The translations under genes and the position numbers were made by a program. A stretch of DNA of 21,559 nucleotides, taken from positions 1 to 21,559 of the IMG/VR virus record IMGVR_UViG_3300043548_000705, one strand, 5' to 3'. The notes under the pieces were generated by a model. The model saw nothing but the letters and a program-made list of their open reading frames with translations, was not told the DNA's origin and ran no database searches. Source of the DNA: a virus. Below are positions 1 through 18,377 of this stretch, piece after piece (the first letter of the stretch is position 1; every line of letters begins with the position of its first letter).

Positions 1-234
1 AACGAATTAACAAAATACATTAGTAAAGTGACTATAGGTTCTAAAGAATTGGATCTTTTTTCTTTAGACTTTAAAAACCGTGTTAAAGTAGTTGAACAAT
101 TGCCTACTAATATTATTAATAAGGTATTAAAGTATATTGAATCCTATAGAAATAAAACTAAAGAGTTAACTTCGGTTAATGTAAGCGGTGTTAATAAAGA
201 TATTCCATCAGACGCTTCATTTTTTAATATGTAG
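1..234 (+). CDS. C-terminal part of a probable T4 gp26-like baseplate hub assembly protein (5'-truncated)
   Basis: The frame is open from the first base of the window, so the GTG at 28 is probably an internal valine and the gene starts upstream. About 77 residues are visible. They contain a short helical stretch (DLFSLDFKNRVKVVEQLP, then NKVLKYIESY) and end in SDASFFNM. This pattern, with an LP motif followed by an amphipathic helix and a short polar tail, resembles the C-terminus of T4 gp26-like baseplate hub proteins. Its place directly before the tape measure gene fits the T4 order 26-51-27-28-29. Identification rests on a short fragment and on position. It could equally be another hub or tail-assembly chaperone. 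The stop codon TAG is at 232-234, leaving a 33-nt gap to the next gene. Confidence 0.45.
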   Translation, partial: NELTKYISKVTIGSKELDLFSLDFKNRVKVVEQLPTNIINKVLKYIESYRNKTKELTSVNVSGVNKDIPSDASFFNM

Positions 235-242
235 TTTTAGTC

Positions 243-270
243 CATCTTCTTAAATAATATATAGAAGATG
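243..270 (+). promoter_or_regulatory. Start-codon hairpin or late-promoter-like element before the tape measure gene
   Basis: A perfect 8-bp inverted repeat (CATCTTCT at 243-250, AGAAGATG at 263-270) encloses the 12-nt loop TAAATAATATAT. The ATG at 268-270 forms the end of the 3' arm. The 11-mer CTTAAATAATA (249-259) recurs exactly before gp25. Read as RNA, the hairpin would hide the start codon. Read as DNA, the TAAATA core resembles the T4 late promoter core TATAAATA, with transcription starting near 263. The sequence alone does not decide between these. Confidence 0.5.
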
Positions 271-2688
271 ACCACCACAACAGTAGACGAATTAGCTAAA
301 TTATTAGCGGGAAAGTTTGACATCTCTGATAGTCTTTTAAAAGAACTTACTAATAAAGCTGTAGGAATTGCTAATAAAAAAGCTGAAAAGACTATTAAAG
401 AAAGATTTAAAGAAGGTGGTGTTTTTGGTTTAGCTAAAGACTTTTTTACAAAGAATAAACCTAAAGAACAAGATAATAAAGGCATTTTAGGTTCTTTAAA
501 AGATTTATTTGAAAAGAATAAACCTAAAGAACAAGATAATAAAGGCATTTTAGGTTCTTTAAAAGATTTATTTGAAAAGAATAAACCTAAAGAACAAGAC
601 CTCATTAAAGAGGAGCAAAAACCACAAAAAGTTTTAATTGACGGTATCACGGATACGGGTTATAGAGACTTAGCTGAAAAAATGCCTGATATTTTAAAGG
701 GTGTTTTTGACAAAACCAAAACAAAAGAATATAAAGAAAAAACAACTGCAGATATTGGTGGTGGGGGTCTTTTAAGCTTATTACCTAAAGGTATAACTAA
801 ATTATTAGGAGGAGCTTTGATGGCAGGGGGTGGAATTGCTTTATTGTTAGGTGGAGTAGCTGCCTTAATAACAGGTCTCAATACGGATGGTCCTTTTAAA
901 GGTCTTTTAAAAATTTTAAGCACAGCTGGTATAGCGGGTGGTTTAAAACTTTTGGAAAAAGGTGCTTTAAATCTTATCAAAAATTTAAAATCTTTTATTG
1001 AAGCTCCTGTAAAACTTTTTCAAACTGCTTATAAAGGATTGAGAGGAATCTTCGGTAAAGGTATTAGTAAGACTATTACAGGAGCATTAGCGAAAACTCC
1101 TGGATTGCTTACGAAAATGCTTGGTGGTCTTACCAAATTTATTACCCCTTTATTAAAAAAACTACCTCTTATAGGTACTGTAATTAGTTTAGGTTTTGCT
1201 TATACTCGTTTTAAATCCGGAGATGTAGTTGGAGGTATTATAGATGTATTATCGGGTTTAGCTTCCTTAGTACCAGGTTTTGGTATACCTATAGCAATTG
1301 GTTTAGATGTCCTTAATGCATTTTTAGATGCTAAAGCAGGAGGGGCCACAGGAGAAGCTAGTCAAAAGAAAGCAGGAATGATTAAAGACTTCTTCGGGGG
1401 AATTTATGATTTTATAGCAGAAAAACTCAGTAGTGCATTTAATTGGGTTGTAGAAATCGGTAAAAAGGTATTAACTGGTAATTGGGGTGAAGCATTTATT
1501 GAAGTTGCTAAACTCGTTCCGGGAATGGGTTGGGTGGTAGATTTAATGGGCGGTGAAGAAGCCGTAGCAACTGCAGGAAATGTAATGGGTGGACAAGCTT
1601 TAGATTTTTACAAAGGGATTAAAAATTACGTTTTTGAAAAAATAAATTCTGCTATGGGTTGGATTGGTGAAATTGGTAAAAAAATATATGATGGTAAGTG
1701 GGGAGAGGTTTTCACTGATATTACCAAAATTGTCCCTGGATTGTATTGGGTTGTGAATTTAATGGGAGGAGAAGAAGCTGTCGCAACAGCTGGTAATGTA
1801 ATGGGTGGACAGGCTGTAGATTTAATGTCATCCATTAAAGATAAAATTATGGGTGTATTTGAACCTATTTTCGGAAAGTGGATAGAAATTGGTAAAAAAA
1901 TAGGCACTGATCCAGGAGCTGCAGTAGTTGATATTATTAGAATGATACCTGGTTTAGGTTGGATGGCAGATTTATTAGGAACAGACAATCTTTCATCTTC
2001 CATAAACACTGCGGTAGAAAAAGCAGGGTCTGGCGATATATTTGGTTCTATTGCTGGGTTATTTACTGATATCAGTCAAACCATTAAACAAAAGTTTTTA
2101 GATAATGCTTTGGCTTTAATACCTGATACTATTTTAGGGTTTCCTGTTAGAGCATTAATAGCACAAAAATTAGGATTACCTATTCCCCCTGGCACTACTA
2201 TTAAAGCAGAAGGGTGGATGGCTGAAAGAATTGCTGGTGCTGCGGGTTACGACCAAAAAGCTTTAGAAAACATAAAACCACCCGAAACTTCTACTTCAGA
2301 AACACAAACAGCTTCTGTGACTGAAACACCTAAACCTAAAGAAATGGCAATCGGCGGTGTTGTGACGAAACCAATAAATGCTATAGTCGGAGAGGCAGGC
2401 CCAGAAGCAGTTATTCCTTTAGACAAATATATGTCACCTGAAGGATTCAAAATTAGTAATGATCTTTTAGGCACTATAGCTAATAATACAGCAACTACCA
2501 ATGAAACTATTATGAATTTAAGTAGAGCTATTTTGCAATTAGCCGGAGTATTCGATAAAAAACAAACCAATTCCAATAACATTATTGTTAACGGACAAAA
2601 TCAACCTCAACAATATCCATCTGCAGCGCAAGTAGCTGCCTCTAATGTCGACCCCATTCGACAAATTAGAATGCAATTTGCTGTTTAA
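268..2688 (+). CDS. Tail tape measure protein (T4 gp29 position)
   Basis: 806 residues. The C-terminal region holds IGGVVTKP and IVGEAGPEAVIPLDKY (about 700-725), a signature common in phage tape measure proteins. The middle is rich in glycine and hydrophobic residues, with membrane-like stretches at about 166-205 and 315-352, also typical. Such proteins span the tail lumen during tube assembly and set its length. At about 0.15 nm per residue, 806 residues allow a tail of up to roughly 120 nm. Two sets of internal repeats are present: 21-residue units at 62-111 and 72-residue units at 374-572. The N-terminal third is Lys/Glu rich and probably helical or disordered. The ATG at 268 is the first in frame after the upstream stop, and it lies in the 3' arm of a hairpin. 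The next gene follows after 14 nt, with tube and baseplate genes downstream, as expected for this function. Confidence 0.85.
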   Translation: MTTTTVDELAKLLAGKFDISDSLLKELTNKAVGIANKKAEKTIKERFKEGGVFGLAKDFFTKNKPKEQDNKGILGSLKDLFEKNKPKEQDNKGILGSLKDLFEKNKPKEQDLIKEEQKPQKVLIDGITDTGYRDLAEKMPDILKGVFDKTKTKEYKEKTTADIGGGGLLSLLPKGITKLLGGALMAGGGIALLLGGVAALITGLNTDGPFKGLLKILSTAGIAGGLKLLEKGALNLIKNLKSFIEAPVKLFQTAYKGLRGIFGKGISKTITGALAKTPGLLTKMLGGLTKFITPLLKKLPLIGTVISLGFAYTRFKSGDVVGGIIDVLSGLASLVPGFGIPIAIGLDVLNAFLDAKAGGATGEASQKKAGMIKDFFGGIYDFIAEKLSSAFNWVVEIGKKVLTGNWGEAFIEVAKLVPGMGWVVDLMGGEEAVATAGNVMGGQALDFYKGIKNYVFEKINSAMGWIGEIGKKIYDGKWGEVFTDITKIVPGLYWVVNLMGGEEAVATAGNVMGGQAVDLMSSIKDKIMGVFEPIFGKWIEIGKKIGTDPGAAVVDIIRMIPGLGWMADLLGTDNLSSSINTAVEKAGSGDIFGSIAGLFTDISQTIKQKFLDNALALIPDTILGFPVRALIAQKLGLPIPPGTTIKAEGWMAERIAGAAGYDQKALENIKPPETSTSETQTASVTETPKPKEMAIGGVVTKPINAIVGEAGPEAVIPLDKYMSPEGFKISNDLLGTIANNTATTNETIMNLSRAILQLAGVFDKKQTNSNNIIVNGQNQPQQYPSAAQVAASNVDPIRQIRMQFAV
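451..599 (+). repeat. Perfect 63-bp in-frame tandem repeat in the tape measure gene
   Basis: Units at 451-513 and 514-576 are identical at every base, followed by 23 identical bases of a third unit at 577-599. Each unit encodes 21 residues, beginning KNKPKEQDNKG and ending LKDLFE. A more diverged copy (GVFGLAKDFFTK) precedes the first. The absence of any synonymous difference means the duplication is recent or kept uniform by recombination. Confidence 0.95.
1387..1985 (+). repeat. Older 216-bp (72-residue) internal repeat in the tape measure gene
   Basis: Units start at 1387, 1603 and 1819, exactly 216 nt apart. Copies 1 and 2 share EIGKKV/I, WGE, VPG and the block GGEEAVATAGNVMGGQ. Copy 3 keeps EIGKKIG, IPGLGW and DLLG, then diverges. 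Copies 1 and 2 differ at many synonymous positions while the protein block is unchanged, so this duplication is older than the 63-bp one and under protein-level selection. Confidence 0.85.
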
Positions 2689-2702: not shown

Positions 2703-3602
2703 ATGACTCAAGACGAACAAGAGACACAAAATGCTATAGGAAATCCTGCTGCGGGTGCGGGTCAATATCTTTATAAAGTAACAGGAGAAAAATTTAATGT
2801 GGTTGACGAATACCGTTGGACATTATCGAAAAAAAATGATGAAACTCCTTATGTTACCTTGATAGAATATGAAGTTAATGAAAGTACTATTGCAACACAG
2901 CTTGGTTATTATCAAAAAGCGACAAAAAATTTATTAAGTGATGATCCCATGTCACCATACGAAGGATTATTTCCACGTACATCTACAGGAAACACATTTA
3001 AAATGCCTTATTTCTCAGACGTGAATTTTGAAATTAATACACCGGTTTGGCAATCTTTAGACACTCTCCAAGAAGGGGCAAATGTTGTTAAAGGAGTAGC
3101 GGGGTTTGTAGGAGGTGAAAAAGTAGCTAATGCAGTTGGAGGTCTCATTTCTGGCGGGGCAGCTATAGGAGGCGCTGTCTTAACTTCACTTTACCCTAAA
3201 GTAGGTATTATGGATAGACCTCGGCTATGGCAGAATCATGAATTTAGAACAATTTCTATTAAATTTCCTCTATTCAATACAGTTGATCCTGACGACTGGA
3301 AAAAAAACCATTGGCTTTGCTGGGCATTAGTTAACAACAATCTTTTTATTAAAAGAAATTTTATTACCAGTATTCCCCCCGTTTATTACGAAGTTAAAAT
3401 TCCAGGACAGCATTACAGTTACGCGTCTTGTGTAACTAATTTGGTTATCTACAACAGAGGAAATATGAGAATGTTAACAAATGATAGAGGTAAGAAAGTA
3501 GTGGTTCCAGACGCTTACGAAGTTAATATGACCTTGACCGATATGGTAATGCCTAGTAGAAATTTATTTCAAAACATTGATGAGGTAGTAGTAGAAAAAT
3601 AA
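2703..3602 (+). CDS. Probable baseplate/tail-tube cap protein (gp48/gp54-like)
   Basis: 299 residues with a soluble N-terminal domain (about 1-125), a glycine/alanine-rich hydrophobic segment (about 130-160), and a beta-rich C-terminal half. The C-terminus contains YEVKIPGQHYSYASC, then VVPDAYEVNMTLTDMVMPSRNLF. A closing beta-sandwich with an 'xPxAYEVxxTLxDMxMPSRN' ending is what I associate with tail-tube-like proteins capping the baseplate (T4 gp48 or gp54). I cannot tell which of the two. The position, after the tape measure and before LysM and hub genes, supports a tube-initiator role. The hydrophobic segment could be an insertion loop packing in the tube lumen. The start ATG at 2703 has no Shine-Dalgarno sequence. 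The following gene starts 4 nt after its stop, so this is part of a tightly packed tail operon. Confidence 0.5.
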   Translation: MTQDEQETQNAIGNPAAGAGQYLYKVTGEKFNVVDEYRWTLSKKNDETPYVTLIEYEVNESTIATQLGYYQKATKNLLSDDPMSPYEGLFPRTSTGNTFKMPYFSDVNFEINTPVWQSLDTLQEGANVVKGVAGFVGGEKVANAVGGLISGGAAIGGAVLTSLYPKVGIMDRPRLWQNHEFRTISIKFPLFNTVDPDDWKKNHWLCWALVNNNLFIKRNFITSIPPVYYEVKIPGQHYSYASCVTNLVIYNRGNMRMLTNDRGKKVVVPDAYEVNMTLTDMVMPSRNLFQNIDEVVVEK

Positions 3603-7400: not shown

Positions 7401-7406
7401 TAAATA
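7401..7406 (+). promoter_or_regulatory. Late-promoter-like TAAATA before the terminase gene
   Basis: TAAATA lies 5 nt before the ATG at 7412, in the 55-nt divergent gap. The same hexamer stands 5-11 nt before the tape measure, fibre-like, gp25 and last giant genes. It resembles the core of the T4 late promoter. The arms around it form only a 4-bp CATT/AATG pairing, so the hairpin seen at other genes is not convincing here. Confidence 0.3.
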
Positions 7407-7411
7407 TCTTT

Positions 7412-7918
7412 ATGAATGAATCTCTTGATACTTTATTAGAAGAATTATCTTCTTTCGATTACTCGACTGTCAAACCCTCTAAAAAAGAAAATGAAATTGA
7501 AATTAATGAGGATAACATTAATGATTATATTTTAAAAAAGACAGGAAATTTAGTAGAAGCGGGTTTAGGCGCTGTCGAAGATTTAAAAGAATATATTGTG
7601 CAAGGTCAAAACCCTGACGAAATTGCAGCTCTTTCAGAATTAATATCTTCTACAACTAAAGCTATAGAAGCACTAAATCGTATTAATTTACATAACAAAA
7701 AGACTAAAGACACTAAAGAACTTAAAAGAATGGATATTGAAGGTAAAAAAGAAATTGCTTCTTTAGTAACAGGAGACACCACAGTCAATAACAATATAGT
7801 AATAGCTTCTAGAGCCGAGATTTTAGAAAGGCTATTTGCTACAGCTTCTGATTCTAATAAAGATTTTGAGATGGTTGAAGTAGATCTTAGCAGTACCAAA
7901 TTAATTGAGGATAAATAA
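7412..7918 (+). CDS. Probable terminase small subunit (T4 gp16-like)
   Basis: 168 residues from ATG 7412 (MNESLDTLLEELSSFDYS). The layout follows T4 gp16 (164 residues). It has an acidic, disordered N-terminus (1-60). A long helical central section (about 65-125, including DEIAALSELISSTTKAIEAL and LHNKKTKDTKELKR) follows. The C-terminal segment VNNNIVIASRAEILERL parallels the T4 segment NIQNATVFMGSPTELMDEI. Small terminases form rings that recognise DNA and stimulate the large ATPase/nuclease during packaging. No large terminase is in the window. An in-frame GTG/ATG extension back to 7337 exists, but it would overlap the divergent small gene and adds a hydrophobic leader unlike the family. 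The gene is first of a two-gene plus-strand island, 5 nt before the fibre-like gene. Confidence 0.6.
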   Translation: MNESLDTLLEELSSFDYSTVKPSKKENEIEINEDNINDYILKKTGNLVEAGLGAVEDLKEYIVQGQNPDEIAALSELISSTTKAIEALNRINLHNKKTKDTKELKRMDIEGKKEIASLVTGDTTVNNNIVIASRAEILERLFATASDSNKDFEMVEVDLSSTKLIEDK

Positions 7919-7923
7919 CATAT

Positions 7924-8523
7924 ATGGCTTACGAATTCATTGATAGAGAAGAATGCATTGGAGATTCTTTATACAAAATTAACAATAACTCTGCTAACTT
8001 TGATTCCCGTATCAATACCTTAAACACTAATTTAGTTACAAATACTCAGTCTCTTTCTTCTCAGGTATTCAAACAAGGTGCGGTTTTAACTGCCTATTTT
8101 CATTCATTTTCTGACAGTACAACTAGATCCGGTGATTTAAGAAACTATGGTTCTGTAAACAACGGAACTTTACCAGTTATTTCAACCAGAAGCAATTCCA
8201 GGTTTTTAATCACTGTTAATGCTTGTGGATATACGGCACCAGGAGCAACAGGTGCGAATATAGGAATTAATCGCACCATATTAACAACAACCACTAGATT
8301 ATTAGGAAGAGACGGTAATGATGGGGATTCGTGGATGGGTACCAGTAACGGTCATTATGGGGCTTTTAGCATTACTAGAACTTTTTTAGACGTTCCTCTT
8401 CAACCAGCAGGGACTACTATTTTTTATAGTATGCTTCATGGACATTGGTCGGCGGGTACTTCTTTTATAAATTATCCGGGTTACGTGGGACAAAGTTCTG
8501 TCGTAGTATACGAAATAATTTAA
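7924..8523 (+). CDS. Probable fibre-like or decorating virion protein
   Basis: 199 residues. The N-terminus MAYEFIDREECIGDSLYKIN is followed by a short heptad-like stretch (SANFDSRINTLNTNL) of the kind found at the base of trimeric tail fibres and collar proteins. Residues from about 55 onward are beta-rich and Gly/Thr/Ser rich, with ISTRSNSRFLITVNACGY and a closing SSVVVYEII. This suggests a jelly-roll or fibre-tip type domain. No catalytic motif is visible. It lies 5 nt after the small terminase, with TAAATA (7912-7917) overlapping the terminase stop. A virion surface role is inference from composition and context. Its stop shares TTAA with the convergent nrdA stop, and a possible hairpin follows. 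Confidence 0.5.
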   Translation: MAYEFIDREECIGDSLYKINNNSANFDSRINTLNTNLVTNTQSLSSQVFKQGAVLTAYFHSFSDSTTRSGDLRNYGSVNNGTLPVISTRSNSRFLITVNACGYTAPGATGANIGINRTILTTTTRLLGRDGNDGDSWMGTSNGHYGAFSITRTFLDVPLQPAGTTIFYSMLHGHWSAGTSFINYPGYVGQSSVVVYEII

Positions 8524-11810: not shown

Positions 11811-11822
11811 TATTTATCGGAT

Positions 11823-11848
11823 TTATCTCTTAAATAATAGAGAGATGG
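11823..11848 (+). promoter_or_regulatory. Start-codon hairpin or late-promoter-like element before gp25
   Basis: ATCTCT (11825-11830) pairs with AGAGAT (11841-11846). G-U pairs can extend the stem at both ends (11823-11824 with 11847-11848, and 11831 with 11840). The loop contains AAATAATA, and CTTAAATAATA (11829-11839) is identical to the tape measure site. The ATG at 11845-11847 lies in the 3' arm. The stem sequence differs from the tape measure site but pairing is kept. Confidence 0.45.
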
Positions 11849-17100: not shown

Positions 17101-18361
17101 ACCACAATATTTGTCTATTGATAGATCTAACAATTTATGGTTTTCACATGGGTTAAGAAGAATTGGATATTATAATTCTTACACTAATGTATTGTCATCC
17201 TGGGTTTTAGACTTGTCTGGTAATTTTACTTTATTCGAAATGCCATCTGGTAATTTGAAAAATTTTGATGAAATAGATAACGAAGAAAATAATGAAATTG
17301 GTGGTCTAGCTGTAGATGTCTATGATAGAGTATGGATTTTAGACAATTTGACTAATAATGTTTGGGTTATATCAGCCACTCCATTTTTTAATGATGTTGA
17401 AATTAGAAAATTTAAAGCAAAACCTGAAAATTTAATCGGGTATTATATTGATCCTAAAGATGGTAGTCAATATACAGAATCCAAAAATTATTATTATAGT
17501 TCAATTGTTGCAAACGGAGATTGGACAGGCAATAAATGGTATCAAAAATATATTACATCAGAATCTTTATCGTCTGTATTACTCTCTGGTGTTTCTGACA
17601 TTTTTTCTGTAAAAGATTTTGAAGATGTTAATAGAATAAGAAGGGTCAATGAGTCTTTTAATAATGCGAAATATTTTAAAGATTTGGCATTACCTGAAAT
17701 ATTAAAAAACAATACAAAATTATTTGATGATTTTTTTGCAGGTACAGTTGGTACATCTTATCTAAGTGCTAATGAAGATATAGGACAAACAATCTATGAA
17801 AAAATAGCAAACTTTGTTTCTAATCATGGAGATGTAGATACGTGTAATGTTGATCAATTGTTAAGTTTTGCAGAGCAAGTAGATGAACCCGTTTTAGATT
17901 ATGCAGCAAATTACCCGTTCGAACTTAAACGTCTCATAGATATATTTTCTGTACCTCGTTCTAAATTATGGGGATTAAAAGAACAAAAACCACTTTTTCC
18001 TCAAAGTATAGGTTCACAATATAGTGATTCTGATTTTATTCAAGCTGGTGAAAAAATTATAGCTAAAAATAGGTTTGACAATTCAATTAAAATAATTTCA
18101 GTCCCTGTACAAAATGGAGAAACTACATACAGATTATCAGAATTTTTAGGTTATGGATTACATCAACCTATTTTATCAAATTATCTATTTTATAGATATA
18201 CTCCGGTATATTCTGGAAATTATATCGAAAATATAATTGATTGGAATTCTGAATTTACTACATTATCGCCTTATCTATCGTCTTATGATGAGTTATATGG
18301 TGAAGGAGGCTCTGTAGAAAATGCCTTTAGATATCTATTGACAAAAAAACTTATTAGTTAA
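14177..18361 (+). CDS. Large virion protein with PKD domain, fibre-type repeats and beta-propeller, in the gene 7 position
   Basis: 1394 residues. Residues 1-83 form a PKD/Ig-like domain (YVWDLGNGD, then SPTYTFKHPGNYNITLSATD). About 490-510 is a propeller-like blade (YSIAIDPRNYDVVAADTE). Three 'xxVxVDGxxxxPxxY' fibre-type beta modules follow near 570, 665 and 741 (for example RFIVSVDGFYTTPSEYS). Four or five further blades with the NHL/Vgb pattern 'xxxSIDxxxNVWV' lie at about 795, 885, 925, 975 and 1041. The C-terminal 300 residues are helical, with NHGDVDTCNVDQLLSFAEQV and LIDIFSVPRSKLWGLKEQKP. Its position directly after gp6 equals that of T4 gp7 (1032 residues), the outer wedge protein. 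I cannot show homology to gp7. The propeller may bind a receptor, glycan or fibre. It starts 2 nt after gp6. Confidence 0.75.
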   Translation: MFNANFTISPSSGDVRATEFTFQDQTSGGSVFRYVWDLGNGDLIYNISSPTYTFKHPGNYNITLSATDFDGNTSSITKQIYVDLVYRDYLKFTQIPETYADPGKKTDVPFKIEVISSNPDKPLLVDLFATNSKSIPHKYVPEKWNFLTPTWKFLDKDSNIVTTLSVDPVKIYKNNEVVAVSGIGEFYYVDSMSTGNPANNCPLLITATLQTSGFTNIADSSVYNYDSYANNESVRAALVWQVNDLFPSRLKITGNYLDPINKLQWKNIKIPILITVHSNRSDLIPGSKDELSEVVFSYPKDNTFKKLSEVFATKEIKIIVIKDYLSLDQFTGYLLQENSDKILLELSDIYISSIISTLDDGKYVLNDSPLYFKSTDSEGFNTGGYLFTTATVLSSIENASITIQTLGIGSDQITNNFIYPDGFSPNTSVWISNPGQGALNKITLVPNNGNCETINYFKNKKLLVDGIIKEVKVPIVETTNTINNSLSGFSGIYSIAIDPRNYDVVAADTELDRIYKISNKGEITKTFSLSSLNDYDSRKKMLDSWSWKTPSQSLSSTNYIFYSPAFRSLNYKNYIATLDGLILPTNHIQIPDYQTVRISAPSGINVPLNREAYPPENLEFNVIQIFNPLLPNSYIDSIDSWTYETSTSTNSFPLTGSLTILNNSKRFIVSVDGFYTTPSEYSINTSTQQLIFTNPVSPQKVVNIHYFKNSLTPAYWENNLLSDTNTIPLTGNNDYIADDKSGFIVAVDRKIINPNTYFFDLTSKQLFFNQNLLAGSTVSITQISVDENLDIPAAYTPSSVSIDKNYNVWVTLFNTVSVLKFDPDLNLLFSTAPENIHWETRPWSTMPSGIDYQASIFGSTTRQVNPVLSQEDLYTDDFFLKPSVAETDKENNCWVTYSNSLCSLLVKYDPNGKQLTQIPTGLYSTPTNLAITSFNNVWVANSHDSSFEYTPLSGSLDLFDGETYQKIKSVKGISKPQYLSIDRSNNLWFSHGLRRIGYYNSYTNVLSSWVLDLSGNFTLFEMPSGNLKNFDEIDNEENNEIGGLAVDVYDRVWILDNLTNNVWVISATPFFNDVEIRKFKAKPENLIGYYIDPKDGSQYTESKNYYYSSIVANGDWTGNKWYQKYITSESLSSVLLSGVSDIFSVKDFEDVNRIRRVNESFNNAKYFKDLALPEILKNNTKLFDDFFAGTVGTSYLSANEDIGQTIYEKIANFVSNHGDVDTCNVDQLLSFAEQVDEPVLDYAANYPFELKRLIDIFSVPRSKLWGLKEQKPLFPQSIGSQYSDSDFIQAGEKIIAKNRFDNSIKIISVPVQNGETTYRLSEFLGYGLHQPILSNYLFYRYTPVYSGNYIENIIDWNSEFTTLSPYLSSYDELYGEGGSVENAFRYLLTKKLIS

Positions 18362-18377
18362 ATAATTTCTAGTGAGT
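18349..18377 (+). promoter_or_regulatory. Start-codon hairpin or late-promoter-like element before the last giant gene
   Basis: ACTTATTAG (18349-18357) can pair with CTAGTGAGT (18369-18377), nine pairs of which two are G-U. The loop is TTAAATAATTT. The GTG start at 18372-18374 lies in the 3' arm, and the upstream stop TAA (18359-18361) is in the loop. The layout matches the sites before the tape measure and gp25: a TAAATAAT loop with the start codon in the 3' arm. The G-U pairs would favour an RNA structure. Confidence 0.42.

Follow-up and report, generated by a model that had tools for sequence, protein, structure and literature searches.

A conserved start-codon hairpin with a predicted T4-type late promoter in its loop at the tape measure gene of uncultivated T4-like phages

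A 28-nucleotide dyad at the start of the tape measure gene of an uncultivated virus, present in a record of 21,559 nucleotides (hereafter the window), is probably a conserved RNA hairpin that sequesters the start codon and carries a T4-type late promoter in its loop, a switch of the kind found at T4 e, soc, 49 and I-TevI. The tape measure gene sets tail length. If our reading is correct, a classic form of T4 control, described so far for a handful of genes and for close relatives of T4, reaches the tape measure gene in a large group of uncultivated T4-like phages, and the turnover of stems there is strong enough to reveal selection on pairing. It would also offer a testable account of why synthesis of the tail-length protein is tied to late transcription, and would suggest that T4-type late transcription here gives mRNA without a leader, in contrast to T4. 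No report of a start hairpin combined with a late promoter at a tape measure gene was found in openly licensed papers; the arrangement itself is known from a few T4 genes, and what is new is the target gene, the depth of conservation, the stem turnover and the near-leaderless setting.

Results

Gene context of the dyad

The 21.6-kb window encodes several T4-type proteins (gp25, gp6, gp53, the gp44 clamp loader, NrdA, NrdB and dUTPase); no gp55 gene was seen in this fragment itself. Its tape measure gene (positions 268-2688, plus strand, 806 aa) sits between the 3' end of a gp26-like baseplate hub/chaperone gene (1-234, plus strand) and a gene in the gp48 position (2703-3602, plus strand). Both the 806-aa protein and its relative in locus L025 are weak matches to phrog_10093 (tail length tape measure protein). 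Gene order in L025 is gp17, a 210-aa gene, sheath, tube, a second tube-like gene, a 317-aa gene, gp26-like, tape measure and gp48-position; the C-terminus of the window's gp26-like protein aligns by eye with the 276-aa L025 protein, which matches PF12322 (T4_baseplate, 1.9e-8) and phrog_150. The gp26-like gene adjoins the tape measure gene upstream on the same strand, its stop codon lying 33 nt ahead of the ATG at 268, and is the likely source of a read-through mRNA; no terminator-like site was found in the window sequence between 234 and 268. Not far into the tape measure gene, tandem repeats that stay in frame (430-600, KNKPKEQDNKGILGSLKDLFE) might serve to set length.

No close isolate was recovered by tblastn with the gp48-position or gp26-like protein against 50,697 phage records, and a gp48-position profile search of GTDB genomes, made for clues to the host, found no relative. 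NrdA proteins 67-76% identical to that of the window occur in metagenome-assembled genome (MAG) contigs L213 and L215 (Flavobacteriaceae) and L211 (Lokiarchaeota), which belong to unrelated phyla and may be stray phage contigs; spread over MAGs of several phyla, NrdA relatives are uninformative as host indicators.

A perfect dyad over the start codon

The 28-mer at 243-270 consists of a 5' arm, CATCTTCT (243-250, plus strand), a 12-nt loop, TAAATAATATAT (251-262), and a 3' arm, AGAAGATG (263-270, plus strand), which is the perfect 8-bp complement of the 5' arm and includes the ATG (268-270) of the 806-aa open reading frame ending at 2688. An earlier note on this DNA had described just such a dyad, with the ATG ending the 3' arm, and the sequence agrees. 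Folded alone, the 28-mer reaches -7.3 kcal/mol (shuffle z -3.8), and no shuffle was equally stable. The window nevertheless has 43 listed dyads, nested ones counted, whose arms reach 8 bp or more and whose loops do not exceed 20 nt; in so AT-rich a sequence such dyads are common, so this one alone is weak evidence. The improbable part is its coincidence with a promoter, a start codon and the same arrangement in relatives.

The loop core as a T4-type late promoter

The loop opens with TAAATA (251-256, plus strand), a hexamer that stands ahead of many late genes, on either strand, in related contigs. Among 238 distinct starts, the distance d from the T of TAAATA to the first ATG takes each value from 6 to 10 only 0-2 times, and then the values 11, 12 and 13 are found 39, 31 and 30 times. 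TAAGTA, which replaces TAAATA as the late promoter core in L134, L137 and L140, has the same edge at d=11 (74 starts), and the edge is missing for control hexamers such as AATAAA, TATAAA and TTAATA. T4 late promoters start transcription 6 nt past the last A of the core. The edge would follow from a start at this point, since a nearer ATG would be cut off from the mRNA; many late mRNAs of these phages would therefore be leaderless.

Homologues of gp55 were found in 8 of 13 related large contigs (7 at E<1e-7, and one weak match). Judged by this sigma factor and by the 11-nt minimum distance, TAAATA is best read as a T4-type (gp55) late promoter core and not as a protein-binding RNA loop. Transcription of the tape measure gene should then begin near 262 (plus strand; the last A of TAAATA plus 6), a position predicted from the d=11 edge, and the 5' arm at 243-250, which lies upstream of it, should be left untranscribed.

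Late promoter cores also occur in the window without a hairpin, at 7401-7406 (plus strand, ATG 11 nt downstream, predicted leaderless) and 7912-7917 (plus strand, ATG 12 nt downstream); a divergent core at 11811-11816 belongs to a minus-strand gene of 182 aa. The core-to-ATG distance of 11-13 nt recurs at many genes (7401-7413 and 7912-7924 in the window, and many other loci) and implies late mRNAs with no leader or hardly any; where T4 was examined, the same distance is mostly 19-37 nt.

Pairing is kept while stems change

Tape-measure starts were gathered through protein homology of the neighbouring gp48-position gene, without use of the motif, giving 37 starts, 28 of them non-redundant; starts from a motif-selected pattern scan were kept out of this set for the statistics. 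A stem of at least 6 Watson-Crick base pairs covers the start in 89% of the 28 non-redundant cases, a figure that the choice of start by hand at distant loci (first in-frame or promoter-preceded) could inflate in some cases, whereas the share is 20% both in dinucleotide shuffles and among 165 other starts with a late promoter. Stems of at least 8 bp are found at 61% of tape-measure starts, 2% of shuffles and 8% of the other late-promoter starts; the combined p values are 4e-19 against shuffles and 8e-11 against the other starts. The latter contrast is conservative, as the 165 controls still held a few tape-measure starts from the motif scan. Pairing is strongest at positions -5 to 0, counted from the A of the ATG.

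Distant stems and loops are hard to align by MAFFT, and an arm-swap test stood in for R-scape or a covariance model. When 5' segments were exchanged among 25 non-redundant starts (L116, L117 and L143 being left out), pairing fell (p=0.0002); with one sequence per stem family, the sum was 102, whereas the permuted sums averaged 77 and did not exceed 95. Own arms thus pair better than swapped ones.

The element in the subgroup of the window reads TCTTCT-TAAATA-variable-AGAAG-ATG, with a loop of varying length, and the stem sequence is invariant in the largest subgroup. T4 late promoters are a -10-like element with no conservation upstream (PMC7892883), so a promoter role does not account for the conserved TCTTCT. 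Stems elsewhere are ATCTCTTCT/AGAAGAGAT (L040), TCTTTCT/AGAAAGA (L042), CATCCA/TGGATG (L052), GGCATAAA/TTTATGCC (L055), CTTCCAT/ATGGAAG (L087), CATGATT/AATCATG (L110), TCTATTAT/ATAATAGA (L129), TGTCATATA/TATATGACA (L134), CATATATTAAT/ATTAATATATG (L137) and ATACTAAT/ATTAGTAT (L151); those of L109, L117, L123 and L142 are weak or placed differently. Nearly every tape-measure hairpin contains TAAATA or TAAGTA at T4 spacing, in the loop or in an arm, and in nearly all loci the 5' arm ends upstream of the predicted transcription start. Conserved pairing, stem turnover, and the identity and spacing of the promoter are thus computed features of these loci, and a tape-measure start hairpin whose stems change while pairing is kept is strongly supported by the sequence comparison.

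The upstream gene is codirectional in 33 of the 37 loci, with its stop codon 21-48 nt before the tape measure start; the exceptions are L116, L117 and L143, together with L140, where the start is too close to the locus end. One long palindrome, with 12- and 15-bp arms in L116 (near 3600) and L143 (near 5572), respectively, is common to two divergent late promoters there and has both start codons inside. In these two loci the neighbouring gene runs divergently on the minus strand from a late promoter of its own, so read-through into the tape measure gene from upstream is not expected, despite the long dyad.

Predicted effect on start codon access

Under the switch that we consider probable, RNA polymerase that runs on from the gp26-like gene would make an mRNA with both arms, whose stem would hold the tape measure AUG and block ribosome entry. 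Late transcription from TAAATA (251-256), dependent on gp55, would instead give an mRNA starting at about 262, without the 5' arm and with the AUG exposed on a leader of about 6 nt. The source of tape measure protein would thus be the late transcript of the gene itself and not the longer read-through RNA, as for the T4 lysozyme gene e; the purpose may be the timing or the dosage of a hydrophobic tail protein.

Computed energies for opening the AUG are consistent with such a block. For tape-measure genes the median is 4.6 kcal/mol when the RNA is read-through and 0.6 kcal/mol when it begins at the predicted late start; other late-promoter genes give 1.6 and 0.6 kcal/mol, and the window itself 7.1 and 0.5 kcal/mol. 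Together with the 28 starts and the swap test, these values strongly support the earlier proposal that an RNA hairpin with changed stems and kept pairing hides the tape measure start. A transcription start at about 262-264 had been taken in the same note as evidence against the hairpin; such a start is indeed predicted, but it leaves the hairpin standing, because the read-through RNA alone folds, and a start near 262 completes a switch of the T4 gene e type.

Hairpins at other gene starts

Two further sites in the window had been described as having the same layout, and all three do share TAAATAAT, although only the tape-measure hairpin is clearly kept in relatives. At the gp25 start (11823-11848, plus strand, late promoter 11831-11836), the dyad has 6 Watson-Crick pairs (ATCTCT/AGAGAT) plus wobbles; stems of at least 6 bp occur at 2 of 13 promoter-bearing gp25 starts, and in L006-L011 and L013 TAAATAATAGA is kept and the pairing is gone. 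The wobble-rich dyad at the start of a 1062-aa gene (18349-18377, plus strand, late promoter 18359-18364) requires two G-U pairs, and 1 of 3 promoter-bearing starts of this gene, which has few relatives, has a stem of at least 6 bp. The three sites therefore do not form one family: the 11823 dyad, not conserved as a hairpin in relatives, is not part of the tape-measure element, and the 18349 dyad, a less clear case, is probably not conserved as a hairpin. Chance or base composition is the likeliest account of the former, perhaps also of the latter.

Sorted by gene, stems of at least 6 bp are found at 91-95% of the starts of tape measure genes, 62% of those of second tube-like genes (24 promoter-bearing starts) and 5 of 9 terminase starts, and are rarer at gp19 tube (10%), gp26-like (0 of 23) and gp48-position (9%) starts. 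The second tail-tube-like gene (protein of about 268 aa, weak phrog_45 match) shows covarying start hairpins around a late promoter in L163, L083, L138, L151 and L142, with stems including TAGCAATA/TATTGCTA, CAAAGACATA/TATGTCTTTG and ATCTGACATA/TATGTCAGAT. In a scan of four large related contigs, a gene for a 104-113-aa protein, to which a family search gave no name, had start hairpins in three phages, the stem differing from one to the next (L179:142, L184:8523 and L191:2492, the last on the minus strand): ATATGTAG/CTACATAT, GTATGTAG/CTACATAC and GTTTAACAT/ATGTTAAAC. Both genes lie outside the window, and their hairpins covary as judged from these stems. We tentatively suggest, with somewhat more doubt than confidence, that start hairpins with an embedded late promoter are a general device of this clade, whose late mRNAs would as a rule have little or no leader, and that chosen genes (tape measure, second tail-tube-like, small protein) are translatable only from their own leaderless late transcripts. 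Such a device would separate the dosage of these genes from the operon that also transcribes them.

Discussion

Alternative explanations

The hairpin might instead be part of the main late transcript, started upstream of 243, and act as a constant damper on tape-measure synthesis. The protein is a low-copy virion component and the computed hairpin strongly reduces access to the AUG, as a damper would require; however, TAAATA or TAAGTA lies at T4 spacing in almost all of the hairpins, and the d=11 edge puts the predicted start downstream of the 5' arm, which makes this account unlikely.

The earlier note favoured a protein-bound translational operator, in which a regulator such as RegA or gp43 would recognise the hairpin with its fixed TAAATAAT loop and repress the tape measure gene. 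RegA and gp43 operators of T4 act at start regions of phage mRNA, and the TCTTCT/AGAAG arms, invariant in the subgroup of the window, make sequence-specific recognition possible there. The loop core, however, corresponds to the late promoter, which most late genes have without any hairpin; the loops differ in length and sequence, stems outside the subgroup are wholly different, and TAAATA falls in loop or arm. We found no conserved RNA loop or site apart from the promoter role, and we consider an operator quite improbable.

That the dyad works as DNA, as the site of a dimeric repressor or activator or as a cruciform acting on the late promoter, is more improbable still: it does span the promoter, but it is missing at other late promoters, its stems change among lineages with variable arm spacing, its pairing is anchored on the start codon, and sequences upstream of T4 late promoters show no conservation (PMC7892883). 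Accidental pairing of a pyrimidine-rich upstream segment with a purine-rich leader, suggested by the 43 listed dyads and by the gp25 dyad, which resembles an accident, has next to no credit at the tape measure gene, where the shuffle, matched-gene and swap controls refute it.

Comparison with known systems

The probable switch at the tape measure gene can be set beside several T4 systems. RegA and gp43 operators differ from it in being protein-dependent; the tape-measure hairpin gives no sign of a protein. Gene 29 of T4 and the cyanophage and pelagiphage tape-measure genes are comparable as genes, the cyanophage one also following gp26/gp51; the late promoter with start hairpin is absent at the tape-measure starts of T4 (gene 29), P-HM2 and ACG-2014j, and the Mosig start has a 6-bp dyad with no typical late-promoter layout.

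The late-promoter/hairpin arrangement of T4 e, soc, 49 and I-TevI has been reviewed (PMC3014915). The start regions of gene 49 and I-TevI, both nucleases, are sequestered in early RNA, and the I-TevI structure includes the late promoter (PMC3014915); their likeness to the tape-measure hairpin is drawn from this description. T4 soc, in the same scan, has a late promoter upstream and a 9-bp stem (CATGTAATT/AATTACATG) whose 3' arm includes the ATG; unlike the tape measure gene, it is a capsid decoration gene and has a Shine-Dalgarno sequence. In T4 gene e, which the scan also recovered (AATACCT/AGGTATT), the late promoter TATAAATA lies in the loop and the 3' arm over the initiation region, the longer transcripts are folded, and the late transcripts lack the 5' arm (PMC3014915). 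Gene e codes for a lysis protein behind a leader with a Shine-Dalgarno sequence, whereas the hairpin described here pairs the AUG itself, belongs to a tape measure gene and has predicted leaders of 0-7 nt in most members. What the two share is a start region paired in the longer RNA (here by prediction and conservation), a late promoter so placed that the transcript would lack the 5' arm (here by the predicted start), and the late sigma factor gp55, with homologues in 8 of the 13 related large contigs.
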